Assembly (NCBI GenBank): GCA_014728245.1
Contig: WJLY01000246.1
Location: forward strand, 1-35,570
Source of the DNA: Candidatus Effluviviaceae Genus IV sp.
Lineage (GTDB): Bacteria > Joyebacterota > Joyebacteria > Joyebacterales > Joyebacteraceae
Direction of reading: 5' to 3'
DNA: 35,570 nucleotides
Part shown: positions 20,805-25,786 of the stretch, in pieces
Layout of the letters: every line of letters begins with the position of its first letter
How positions within the stretch are numbered: position 1 is the first letter of the stretch
Notes under the pieces: generated by a model
Told to the model about the DNA's origin: nothing
What the model saw: only the letters and a program-made list of their open reading frames with translations
The model's database searches: none
Made by a program: the position numbers and the translations under genes

Positions 20805-21866
20805 TCACTCGGCAGCTCGCTCCGGATTACGTCCCGACCGCTCCGCACCGTCCCCGGACCTTCTCGAGCCTCGGTCCGTGGGCCTCCACGTCGCACCGAG
20901 CAACCGCGATGGATGCCCGCTCTGGACGCTGATCTCCGGTGTCCACTCGAACGCCCGGAGGCGGCGCCTGAGCTCCTGATAGATCGCCGCCCGTTCCCGG
21001 GACGACGGGCGGCCGCCCAAGATAGCGCAGCGAGCGTCCGCCCTGTAGAGCCAGGTGCGGAACAGGAGTCGCTGGGACCACAGACGGGACACGATCTCCG
21101 GCGCCGCGCCCTCTCCCTCGCAGAAGTAGATGAAGTCGGAGAGCACCCTCGCCGCGAACGCCGTGCGCTCGGTCTTCCTCGTCGACGCTCCACCGCCGTG
21201 TCCGAACACGCAGGAGGCGGCCACCCCGACGGATACGCCGAGACGGAGCGCCCTGCGGCACCACTCGACGTCCTCGTTGTACAGGAAGTAGTCCCCGTCC
21301 ATCGGGCCGAGCGTGCTTAGCGTCTTCTTGTGGAGCGCCATGGCCGCGCCGGATATGGCCGGAGCAAACACCACGCGATCGTCCCCGAGCCGCCGCAGGA
21401 GCTCGGTCCTGGATGCAAGGCGGCGGCCGGGAAGGAAGAGGCCTTCCCGTAGGATGTCCGAGAGGACCGGCAACGGACGGGCCGTATCATACGTCACGCG
21501 TCCGTTCCTTCCGATCATCACTCCGCCTATGAGACACGGTTCCGTGCCGTCCAGGACAGCGCGTACCAGACCCGCCAGCGCTCCCTCGAGGGGACGCACG
21601 TCGGGATTCAGGATGACGAGGGCGTCGCCGCGCGCGTCCGACAGCCCGCGGTTCACCGCCCTCGCGTAGCCGAGATTCCGCTCCTCCCGCAGGAGCCGCG
21701 CCTCAGGGGCCGCTTCGTGAATGAGACGGTCGCTCCCGTCGTTGGAGTCGTTGTCGACCACGATGATCTCCGCGCCGCAGCCCTTCGCCATGGCGGCCAG
21801 GCTCGCCACCGACTCGGCGGCCTCTTCTCCCCCGTTGTAGTTGACAACGATGACACTCGCTCTCAT
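20805..21866 (-). CDS. Glycosyltransferase family 2 (rhamnosyltransferase-like)
   Basis: MRASVIVVNYNGGEEAAESVASLAAMAKGCGAEIIVVDNDSNDGSDRLIHE; GDALVILNPDVRPLEGAL; DGDYFLYNEDVEWCRRALRLG. Start at ATG 21866; the ORF-track start at 22094 lies within the upstream gene. Confidence 0.92.
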   Translation of the reverse strand: MRASVIVVNYNGGEEAAESVASLAAMAKGCGAEIIVVDNDSNDGSDRLIHEAAPEARLLREERNLGYARAVNRGLSDARGDALVILNPDVRPLEGALAGLVRAVLDGTEPCLIGGVMIGRNGRVTYDTARPLPVLSDILREGLFLPGRRLASRTELLRRLGDDRVVFAPAISGAAMALHKKTLSTLGPMDGDYFLYNEDVEWCRRALRLGVSVGVAASCVFGHGGGASTRKTERTAFAARVLSDFIYFCEGEGAAPEIVSRLWSQRLLFRTWLYRADARCAILGGRPSSRERAAIYQELRRRLRAFEWTPEISVQSGHPSRLLGATWRPTDRGSRRSGDGAERSGRNPERAAE

Positions 21867-21960
21867 CGCCTCTCCAGCGTCCGGTAGATCGTCTCGTAAT
21901 CTGAGATGACACTCGCTCTCATCGCCGCTCCAGCGTTCGGTAGATCGTCTCGTAATCTGA
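21849..21960. repeat. 56-bp tandem duplication (two copies, 2 mismatches) spanning the stop/start junction of two glycosyltransferase genes
   Basis: Copy 1 21849-21904 gatgacactcgctctcatcgcctctccagcgtccggtagatcgtctcgtaatctga; copy 2 21905-21960 gatgacactcgctctcatcgccgctccagcgttcggtagatcgtctcgtaatctga. 54/56 identical, directly abutting. Confidence 0.97.
21863..21922 (-). CDS. 19-codon chimeric mini-ORF created by the tandem duplication (possible coupling minicistron)
   Basis: Minus strand ATG at 21922 overlaps the GT4 stop (ATGA); translation MRASVISDYETIYRTLERR*; its stop overlaps the GT2 ATG at 21866 (ATGA). Confidence 0.35.
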   Translation of the reverse strand: MRASVISDYETIYRTLERR

Positions 21961-23151
21961 AAGGGTGTCACGCATGTCAAGCCTGTCCGCCGCGAACGTG
22001 AGGCAGCGTCGGCGGGCCGAATCGGAGCGAAGATCGCCTTGCGCTGCGGCGGTCGCGACCGCTTCAGCCGCTCCCGCAGGGTCGTCCGGGTCAACGAGAA
22101 TGCCGAGGGAGTGCTGGTCTATCCAGTCGCGCGTGTCCCCGATCCCGCCTCCGGCGACGACCGGCAATCCCGCGGCCATGTACTCGCTGAACTTGATCGG
22201 CGCGCAGACCTGTTTTGAGATATCATCATCGATCAGCATGAGACCGACGTCCGCCGCCGCGAGGAACCCCGGCACCTCTTCCACGGGAGACGTCGTAAGG
22301 TCCATCCGCCCGGGCGGGATGCCCTCAGCCAGCGCCATGCGGCGCAGAGCCTCGGGGTTCGGATACACGGTCGCGGCGAAGCGTGCCTCTGGCATGGCGC
22401 CCAGAACCCGAGCCACGAGTTCGACCGTCCTGTCGAGCCTGTGCCACTTTGCGGACGACCCGGCGTAGGCGAAGACCAGGCTTCCGTTCCATCCGCGCCG
22501 AGCGCGGGCGGCCTCGCGCCTGTCCAGGGGTCCCTTGAATCTGCGCAGATCGACGCGGTTGGGAATCACCGTGATCTTGTCGGGGTCGAGCACGCGGTCG
22601 AGGTCACTCCTCTCCATGAGATGGTCCCTGAATCGCTCCGACACCACGACGATGGCGTCCGCCCTGCGCAGCAGCCTGCGCTCGAGCCACCGCGCGAATC
22701 TGAGCCTGGCGGTGCCCGGTTCGAACGCGCCCTCCAGCAGATACTCGTCGACGAAGAGCCCACGCATGTCGAAGAGGAAGCGAGCGTTCACAAGCGGCCG
22801 GACGAGCATGGCCATGATCCCCGGGAAGTAGCTCCTCGCATGGACGACCCGCGTTCCCCCGAACACGACGCTCGCGAGCACCGCCGTCGCCCCCATCGGG
22901 ATCTCCAGCCATCGAGTGCCCACGACGGGCATCGGCCAGTGCGCGACATCGTGGGCGAGGAGCCTTTGCCTGACGCGTTCGTACTCCGCCGCGTCGTTCG
23001 CGGAACGTCCGCGGCGCCATGGCTCGAATGATATCACCGAGAACGGACGCTCAGCGGAGAGAGCGACCGTCTGCTCGAGTCCGTGCAGGTGCGATATCGG
23101 CGCCGTCAGGCTCTCGCGGACGAGGTAGAGCACGCGGCCGCGCGGCTTCAT
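21919..23151 (-). CDS. Glycosyltransferase family 4-like
   Basis: MKPRGRVLYLVRESLTAPISHLHGLEQTVAL; ADAIVVVSERFRDHLM; VFAYAGSSAKWHRLDRTVELVARVL; APIKFSEYMAAGLPVVAGGGIGDTRDWIDQHSLGILVDPDDPAGAAEAV. Confidence 0.88.
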   Translation of the reverse strand: MKPRGRVLYLVRESLTAPISHLHGLEQTVALSAERPFSVISFEPWRRGRSANDAAEYERVRQRLLAHDVAHWPMPVVGTRWLEIPMGATAVLASVVFGGTRVVHARSYFPGIMAMLVRPLVNARFLFDMRGLFVDEYLLEGAFEPGTARLRFARWLERRLLRRADAIVVVSERFRDHLMERSDLDRVLDPDKITVIPNRVDLRRFKGPLDRREAARARRGWNGSLVFAYAGSSAKWHRLDRTVELVARVLGAMPEARFAATVYPNPEALRRMALAEGIPPGRMDLTTSPVEEVPGFLAAADVGLMLIDDDISKQVCAPIKFSEYMAAGLPVVAGGGIGDTRDWIDQHSLGILVDPDDPAGAAEAVATAAAQGDLRSDSARRRCLTFAADRLDMRDTLSDYETIYRTLERR

Positions 23152-24569
23152 GCCTGCCCCCCTCCTCTGACCGGTTGCTCCAATGCGGGCCGCGCATCGG
23201 TCTTCGAGACGCTCATGCGCTCAGCGACGGCGAGGAGGATCCACAGCAGGTAGTTGCTGGCGGGCTCGGCGGCGGGGAAGGACTGAGCCTGGAGATAGAA
23301 CGCGGTTCCTCCGATGAGAAGCGCCGCTCTCGGCCACCCCGCAGCTTCCGCCCTGGCTCTTGACCGAACGACGTTGCGGAAGAAGAGCACGCACACGGCA
23401 AGCGAGAGGAGCAGGCCCGGCACGCCCATCGCCAGTCCGCGCTGAAGGAAGTAGTTCTCCGCGGTGAACGCGACCTCCCGCGCGCGCGTCACTCGATAGC
23501 GGCCCTCCAGCGCTGTCCGGATGCTCCCCCACCCGACGCCGAGGAACGGGTGATCACGGACAACCTGGACGGCCTGGCGATAGGTGATCATGCGCGCCGC
23601 CACCGTCATGGCGTCCCCCGTTACTACGTTTTCGAACTTGCGAACGAGCGCCGCAGGGGACGCGAAGAAGAGGACGACGAGCGCGACGGGCACCGCGAGC
23701 AGCACTACCCTGCGCCGTCGGAACACGACTGCGGTCGCCACGCCGGCGCCGAACATGCCGACGAGGCCCGCCGCCGAGTAAGTGAAGAGGTTGGTGACGG
23801 CCGAGAGAAGACCCGTGGCCGTCGTCACGGTCCGCGCGCGACGCGAGAGCCTCGACGCGAGGAGCCCGAGCGCAAGTCCGAAGCCGACCGTGAGATAGTG
23901 CGAGAACCTGAGCGCGTGGTTGAACGTCGAGAAGATGCGTATGTGCGGGCTGTCTCCGAGCCCGTACGCGATCATCTTGTTGCCCCACTTCGGCAGCTGC
24001 GCGTCGACCGGAAGAAAGGCCTGGTAAAGGCCGTAGGCGGCGGCCGGCGCAAGGCCCAGCACGATCGCGGCGAGCGTGCGCGTAGCGGTGCGTCCATCGC
24101 GCACGAGCTGGTACGCGAGGTAGAAGAACGTGAGCTGGCAGACGATCCTGTAGACCGAGGCCGCGCCCCACATGACGCGCGTCGCCGTGTAGAGCCCGAT
24201 CACGCTGAGCCCTAGGACGACGATCCCCAGACGGAATGTCACGCTGCGCTTGAGTATCCTGGTGAGCCCACGCTCGTACAGTACGAGGACGGCAAGGGCG
24301 TAGAGCAGCACGTCTCCGTAGAAGAGCGTGATCGTGCCGGCGACATCGACTGCGAGCGCCTGCCTCAGGGGAATCGAGCCGACGAGCGCGTACCAGAGCC
24401 CGAGCCTGAGACCGAATCTGAGGACGAGCACGACGGTCGCGGCGACAAGGAGAACAAAGGCCGCGGACTCCAATGGTCGCAGCGCAACGGCCACGGTCAG
24501 CGCCACGAGCGCCAGCGCGATCGGAATCCAGGGGGTTCGCGGAAGATCTCTTCCCGTGAGTCGGGTCAT
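23148..24569 (-). CDS. O-antigen ligase/polymerase family membrane protein
   Basis: About 12 hydrophobic segments; Wzy/WaaL-like region HPFLGVGWGSIRTALEGRYRVTRAREVAFTAENYFLQRGLAMGVPGLLLSL. ATGA overlap with the downstream GT4. Start set to ATG 24569; the ORF track extends to 24629. Confidence 0.82.
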   Translation of the reverse strand: MTRLTGRDLPRTPWIPIALALVALTVAVALRPLESAAFVLLVAATVVLVLRFGLRLGLWYALVGSIPLRQALAVDVAGTITLFYGDVLLYALAVLVLYERGLTRILKRSVTFRLGIVVLGLSVIGLYTATRVMWGAASVYRIVCQLTFFYLAYQLVRDGRTATRTLAAIVLGLAPAAAYGLYQAFLPVDAQLPKWGNKMIAYGLGDSPHIRIFSTFNHALRFSHYLTVGFGLALGLLASRLSRRARTVTTATGLLSAVTNLFTYSAAGLVGMFGAGVATAVVFRRRRVVLLAVPVALVVLFFASPAALVRKFENVVTGDAMTVAARMITYRQAVQVVRDHPFLGVGWGSIRTALEGRYRVTRAREVAFTAENYFLQRGLAMGVPGLLLSLAVCVLFFRNVVRSRARAEAAGWPRAALLIGGTAFYLQAQSFPAAEPASNYLLWILLAVAERMSVSKTDARPALEQPVRGGGQA

Positions 24570-24577
24570 GCCTCGTG

Positions 24578-25786
24578 TCAATCCGCTTTGCCGCCCGCGG
24601 ACCGCGCCGTGCCCCACGAGCGCAGCCACCGCGCGCAGCGGATCAGGAGCGCAGGAGCCCTCACGGCGCCTTCTCCCGCCTCGCTCTCGGAGTAGGACAG
24701 AAGCCCGTCGGCCAGAAGCGCGGTCGCGATCGACGCGATGAAGGCCAGTATCGCGGTGAGCAACACGATGAGCTTGCGCCTCGGGCGTTCACGAAGCTCG
24801 GGCCGCACTGCCCTGTCGAGCACGGCGATGACACGGAGGTCACGGACCTCCTCGGTCCGCGCCTGTTCGAGCTCCGCCCTCAGGAACTCGTAGACCTGTT
24901 CCTGTATCCTGACCTCGCGGGTGAGCTCGATGAGTTCGATCCCCAGCTCCGGGATCCCGCCGAGCGGGACCAGGACGCCGTCGGCCTTCTGCCCGCTCCC
25001 GGTCAGCTCGCCTATCCTCTCGTCGAGCTCGGTCAACCTCGCGTCGATCTCTCGCATCTCCACCATGTCGGGCGTGGAGAACTGCTCGAGCACGCCTCTC
25101 TTCATCGAGAGCTGAGTCCGCTCGGCCTGGAGTGCGGCGATGGCCTCGACGGTCACGCGCGTCTGCTCGCTGAGCTCTACGGTCCTGTGATCCTGCTGGA
25201 ACGCGCGCAGACTCTGTGTAGCGTCGTCCAGGCGCTCCTGTGTCACGCCCAGCGCCTCGCTCAGCGACTCTACGGTCCTGCTCGCCTGCTCCACGCTCGT
25301 TGTCCGGATGTGCCGGTCGAGGAGCTCGGCGAACCTGTTCGCAATATTCGCCGCGCGTTCAGGGTCGCGGTCCTCGACCGAGATCTCTATCAGGCCTTCG
25401 GGCGTCGTTTCGACGATCATGTGCTCGCCGAGCTTGTTCATGGCCTCGACGCGCGAGTCCTCTCGATACGCCTTCATAAGGCCGAACTCGTCGACGACCT
25501 GTCCGCGGAGGCTGCGGCTCTTGACGATGCCGATCATGAGGTCGGTCTCCGGCGTCCTCGAGAGGAGGCCGCCCGCGCCGAAATCGAAACCGGCCTGGGT
25601 GAAGACGCTCAGCACGCTGCGGCGCGACCCGGTCTCCTCCGGAGGAAGCAGCACCGTGTTCGCCTTGTACCACGAGGGGAGCACGAGGCTCACGACGGCG
25701 GCGATCACGATGGCCGCCAGCGTAACGCGTACGACCATGGATCTCCACGCGAAGACGACATCGAGCAGCGATCGTTCACGGTCCAT
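24578..25786 (-). CDS. Wzz/GumC-like chain-length determinant protein
   Basis: N-terminal TM (LAAIVIAAVVSLVLPSWYKANTVLLPP), long coiled-coil middle, C-terminal TM (KLIVLLTAILAFIASIATALLADGL). No C-terminal BY-kinase domain. Confidence 0.85.
   Translation of the reverse strand: MDRERSLLDVVFAWRSMVVRVTLAAIVIAAVVSLVLPSWYKANTVLLPPEETGSRRSVLSVFTQAGFDFGAGGLLSRTPETDLMIGIVKSRSLRGQVVDEFGLMKAYREDSRVEAMNKLGEHMIVETTPEGLIEISVEDRDPERAANIANRFAELLDRHIRTTSVEQASRTVESLSEALGVTQERLDDATQSLRAFQQDHRTVELSEQTRVTVEAIAALQAERTQLSMKRGVLEQFSTPDMVEMREIDARLTELDERIGELTGSGQKADGVLVPLGGIPELGIELIELTREVRIQEQVYEFLRAELEQARTEEVRDLRVIAVLDRAVRPELRERPRRKLIVLLTAILAFIASIATALLADGLLSYSESEAGEGAVRAPALLIRCARWLRSWGTARSAGGKAD

Follow-up and report, generated by a model that had tools for sequence, protein, structure and literature searches.

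Two abutting 56-bp copies of a stop/start junction lie between adjacent, co-directed GT4-type and GT2-type glycosyltransferase genes of a surface-polysaccharide operon. The most probable reading, to which we assign a probability of about 0.7, is that a single recent tandem duplication over an ancestral ATGA overlap gave rise to this arrangement, that it is near-neutral, and that translation of GT2 would be preserved by a relay through a new minicistron or by the duplicated native context upstream of the GT2 start. The duplication would represent one 56-bp event in this lineage.

Two tandem copies of the GT4-GT2 junction

Within the window (the whole stretch of 35,570 nt that was analysed), positions 21849-21960 form the sole tandem repeat with a TRF score of at least 50, with a period of 56, 2.0 copies, a 96% match and 0 indels. 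The abutting copies, at 21849-21904 and 21905-21960, are identical at 54/56 positions, which for a tandem pair of this length puts a chance match far out of the question. Each copy carries the last 13 codons of GT4, the ATGA overlap and the first six codons of GT2. The original prediction had described two abutting copies with two differences, each joining 13 GT4 codons plus stop to six GT2 codons through a shared ATGA, and both TRF and the sequence bear out this layout to the base. The features at and around the junction are as follows (an asterisk denotes a stop codon):

21905..21960, minus strand: copy 1 of the 56-bp unit (transcript-upstream), from which the GT4 C-terminus and stop are supplied (TRF, sequence)
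21849..21904, minus strand: copy 2 of the 56-bp unit, with the real GT2 start and 38 nt of native upstream context (TRF, sequence)
21919..21922, minus strand: ATGA overlap 1, GT4 stop TGA / mini-ORF ATG (sequence)
21863..21866, minus strand: ATGA overlap 2, mini-ORF stop TGA / GT2 ATG (sequence)
21863..21922, minus strand: relay mini-ORF of 19 codons and a stop, MRASVISDYETIYRTLERR* (frame 2 of the translated sequence)
21928..21931, minus strand: GGAG, weak SD-like core, 5-nt spacer to the copy-1 ATG, duplex energy -6.0 kcal/mol
21872..21875, minus strand: GGAG, weak SD-like core, 5-nt spacer to the copy-2 (GT2) ATG, duplex energy -6.4 kcal/mol
21919..23151, minus strand: GT4-type glycosyltransferase, intact, ending SDYETIYRTLERR* (Pfam PF13579, PF13439 and PF13692; six syntenic orthologues at ~50% identity)
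20805..21866, minus strand: GT2-type glycosyltransferase, intact, starting MRASVIVVNYNG (Pfam PF00535; orthologue alignments from residue 1)
23148..24629, minus strand: O-antigen ligase/polymerase (Wzy_C), upstream of GT4 (Pfam; overlaps the GT4 start at 23148-23151)

Domain matches give the order of the minus-strand operon as an SLBB-domain export protein, a Wzz-type chain-length protein, the Wzy_C ligase/polymerase, GT4, GT2 and another GT4. The duplication has probably left both GT4 and GT2 intact, and it would have been tolerated because neither protein was changed. The stop/start spacing of a translationally coupled gene pair is present twice at the GT4-GT2 junction, in the form of the two ATGA overlaps. 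A search of the genome found no second site for the 56-bp unit, which marks it as a local copy, and a mobile repeat is rejected as its source on the same ground.

On the coding strand, the two copies differ at unit position 24 (A/G) and at position 34 (C/A), and both mismatches exchange synonymous Arg codons in the GT4 frame (CGA/CGG and CGG/AGG). The mismatches had previously been taken to speak against a fresh assembly artefact, an argument that is not strong given that co-assembled haplotypes would yield just such GT4-synonymous differences. Indeed, the metagenome assembly may have concatenated two strain haplotypes that had a single junction copy apiece and differed at two synonymous positions, an explanation that we regard as unlikely. 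It would account for the synonymy, which is expected at ~7% for two random changes, although selection on copy 1, as the part that encodes the working GT4 C-terminus, would be just as likely to produce this pattern. In addition, the source assembly is fragmented, with 2.75 Mb in 325 contigs, and the nearest of the named relatives that were found are metagenome assemblies too, Candidatus Eisenbacteria among them. The 56-bp breakpoints also show no flanking microhomology, so that replication slippage is not visible at this site, in contrast to two other loci with 13-bp partial third copies. On the other hand, De Bruijn assemblers normally require reads across the exact junction, which counts against an end-to-end join of this type.

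The mini-ORF as a possible relay and initiation of GT2

As originally predicted, translation yields a 19-aa mini-ORF, which runs from the ATG at 21922, on the GT4 stop, to position 21863, within the ATGA of the GT2 start at 21866, such that it is bounded by ATGA at both ends. Coupling by termination-reinitiation acts over short distances in E. coli and H. volcanii, where a spacing of ~20 nt nearly abolishes it, as +38 nt does in E. coli, and where the final 15 nt of the upstream gene are enough (PMC10666635). With the GT4 stop and the GT2 start set 52 nt apart by the duplication, coupling of GT2 to GT4 would be largely lost unless ribosomes are relayed via the mini-ORF or initiate anew at GT2. 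In copy 2, the GT2 start would be given back together with 38 nt of its own upstream sequence, the weak GGAG included, which leaves both routes to GT2 available. We suggest that ribosomes finishing GT4 may reinitiate on the mini-ORF and then again on GT2, in a two-step termination-reinitiation relay, and that GT2 initiation from the duplicated weak SD may operate in addition or instead; either way, GT2 output would be little altered. The earlier claim that coupling is kept through a relay mini-ORF is therefore upheld with respect to the ATGA geometry, and the relay itself is plausible, whereas the retention of coupling is what we infer from the sequence.

A duplex energy of -5 or better is reached at 43% of the minus-strand ATGs in the window, so the scores of the two GGAG cores are not significant alone and, with both cores being weak, the SD is set aside as a sole explanation.

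The chimeric 19-residue peptide might also be thought functional in its own right, as its frame is open and equipped with a start, a stop and a weak SD-like GGAG. However, the two halves derive from the adjoining genes and are read in the same frames as there, hence the openness is automatic, and the peptide has neither another genomic copy nor any conservation. We find a function of this kind hardly credible, and the peptide is probably functionless.

A single junction at the syntenic loci of relatives

Related genomes, which had been named as a check on the locus, have the GT4 and GT2 orthologues side by side at six loci from three genera of the same family, where GT4 is ~50% and GT2 41-51% identical to the proteins encoded here. 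A single ATGA junction is present in 6/6 of these loci, which indicates that one junction copy is ancestral and the second copy derived. The copies are thus arranged head-to-tail here and single in the relatives, as expected of a tandem junction duplication, and, judging by these comparisons, the second copy is private to this metagenome-assembled genome. A search of GTDB genomes returned distant relatives only, at protein identities of 35-54%, and yielded no further genome of this species.

The operon is not uniform among relatives. One same-genus genome (57% complete) has a different gene preceding GT2. We also note that a different gene precedes the GT2 orthologue, with GT4 absent between, at three loci (L028, L029 and L031, in genomes G005, G018 and G001, respectively), and that the C-terminus of this preceding gene resembles that of the ligase/polymerase. 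GT4 therefore seems to be a variable component of this operon.

Geometry of a duplicated ATGA junction

By reasoning from the sequence, any segment that spans a stop/start junction can always be copied in tandem with both genes kept whole, because the first copy would complete the upstream gene (A) and the second would start the downstream gene (B). From the ATG within copy 1, translation would follow the native frame of B through its first codons up to the unit boundary and continue into copy 2. With a unit length of 2 mod 3, as is the case for 56, entry into copy 2 would occur in the native frame of the tail of A, which has no stop before its own TGA, and the product would be an open mini-ORF that ends on the second ATGA. 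By the same reasoning, the combination of an ATGA overlap with a unit of 2 mod 3 produces a relay mini-ORF by necessity, with a prior chance of 1 in 3, such that selection is not required as an explanation. The "clean" outcome from a unit that is not a multiple of three, which the original prediction had emphasized, is thus real as geometry but not notable, being automatic once this 1-in-3 chance has fallen.

The second junction could alternatively be a selected regulatory element that tunes the GT4:GT2 ratio, for example through ribosome loss at each relay step, and possibly by a reversible change in copy number. While the relay-like geometry and the strong distance dependence of coupling (PMC10666635) are compatible with such a role, and location within a surface-polysaccharide operon would suit variation in expression, we consider it highly unlikely: the element is not conserved (0/6 syntenic relatives), it consists of a single extra copy that has already diverged, its geometry arises without selection in one case out of three, and neutral-looking duplications of a similar kind are common.

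Comparison with MIRUs and other short upstream ORFs

The statement that no class of duplicated coupling junctions had been described does not hold with respect to architecture, since the mycobacterial MIRUs are a described class with a similar arrangement. In a MIRU, the ORF and the gene that follows it are coupled at -4 nt, a coupling believed to make the insertion harmless to expression (PMC12548453), and the MIRUs of senX3-regX3 comprise either three 77-bp units or two 77-bp units and one 53-bp unit (PMC4213456). As in a MIRU, a short repeat is located here between genes of an operon, and its ORF meets the downstream gene at the -4 nt (ATGA) spacing, at 21863-21866 between the mini-ORF and GT2, a correspondence that concerns spacing only. 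Moreover, the MIRU units of 77 and 53 are 2 mod 3, like the 56-bp unit. In contrast, MIRUs are interspersed at many loci and are apparently mobile, whereas the 56-bp unit is present at one site and is composed of the end of GT4 and the start of GT2. By analogy, the locus would work like a MIRU, yet it is not a MIRU. For duplicated ATGA junctions as such, no paper was found in the literature on tandem duplication with gene overlap.

The leader ORFs in the integron attI1 (ORF-11, ORF-17 and ORF-18) and bicistronic designs rest on the same principle, in which ribosomes are brought to a start codon by a short ORF located immediately upstream (PMC8876359; PMC12548453). These initiate from their own region, while the mini-ORF described here is intra-operonic, would be fed by a full upstream gene and appears to be born of a duplication. 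A -4 nt overlap is the commonest prokaryotic gene spacing (PMC10666635) and is the spacing of both junctions here, as in termination-reinitiation at ATGA overlaps generally; what sets this locus apart from a simple ATGA overlap is that two follow one another, separated by a 19-codon ORF.

If real, the locus clearly illustrates, in a natural setting, how a relay minicistron of the MIRU type could originate in one step from the ends of two joined genes. It also leads to a testable rule, namely, that units of 2 mod 3 keep ATGA coupling, whereas other lengths break the coupling or lengthen the downstream protein. The broader proposal, that tandem copying of ATGA junctions provides MIRU-like relay minicistrons with a general but so far unrecognised route of birth, in which units of 2 mod 3 are preferentially kept as the only ones to preserve coupling and of which this locus would be a fresh example, seems to us quite unlikely. 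Alone, and in one uncultured genome, the junction duplication alters little, and its interest as a possible route of minicistron birth is modest.

Short tandem duplications elsewhere in the genome

The tandem-repeat scan of this genome covered ~29% of it (794 kb) as stretches, with N-masked short contigs excluded, and two-copy duplications were counted at a period of at least 20 and an identity of at least 90%. This yielded 18 two-copy duplications in 794 kb (2.27 per 100 kb), compared to 12 in 413 kb (2.91 per 100 kb) for the relatives, and the lack of a raised density argues against the joining of haplotypes during assembly. Frame-breaking duplications occur at five gene ends in the scanned part of the genome (the window and four others), where the proteins keep their family domains, and none was found inside a gene in the 794 kb. 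Unit lengths are multiples of three in 15/15 in-gene duplications but in only 5/15 elsewhere (Fisher p = 2e-4), a contrast that is partly circular, since any copy that breaks the frame within a gene would cut short the called ORF and is then classed as "edge". This distribution suggests real duplications that are filtered by selection on proteins, with no special excess in this assembly. The periods of the gene-end duplications elsewhere in the genome vary from 27 to 61 bp and show no fixed, k-mer-like length, which likewise disfavours an artefact. The ordinary gene-end two-copy duplications of this genome share their range of size and divergence with the 56-bp pair, although among those sampled the 56-bp pair alone centres on an ATGA overlap. 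By analogy with them, the junction looks like ordinary duplication noise with a geometry that resembles that of a MIRU.

Four other gene-end duplications in this genome leave the upstream domain intact, namely, one of 61 bp at a nucleotidyltransferase stop, one of 34 bp (2 x 17) where a beta-lactamase-fold gene ends, and the 35-bp and 50-bp duplications described below. At a beta-lactamase-fold gene end (L129 17504-17571, G000:C141), the 17-bp unit is present ~4 times and forms a chain of five-codon ORFs, MAKGR*, MAKRL*, MAKGR* and MAKRR*, with TGATG or TAATG at the joints and without a close downstream gene. A 35-bp tandem duplication (L050 17803-17872, G000:C9) spans the stop of an ABC permease gene that is followed by a solute-binding protein gene. 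At a further locus (L141 8205-8304, G000:C177), a 50-bp duplication with two mismatches encompasses the 3' end of a DUF3307 gene (12 codons plus the stop), and its junction creates an ATG upstream of, and in frame with, a pantothenate kinase gene.
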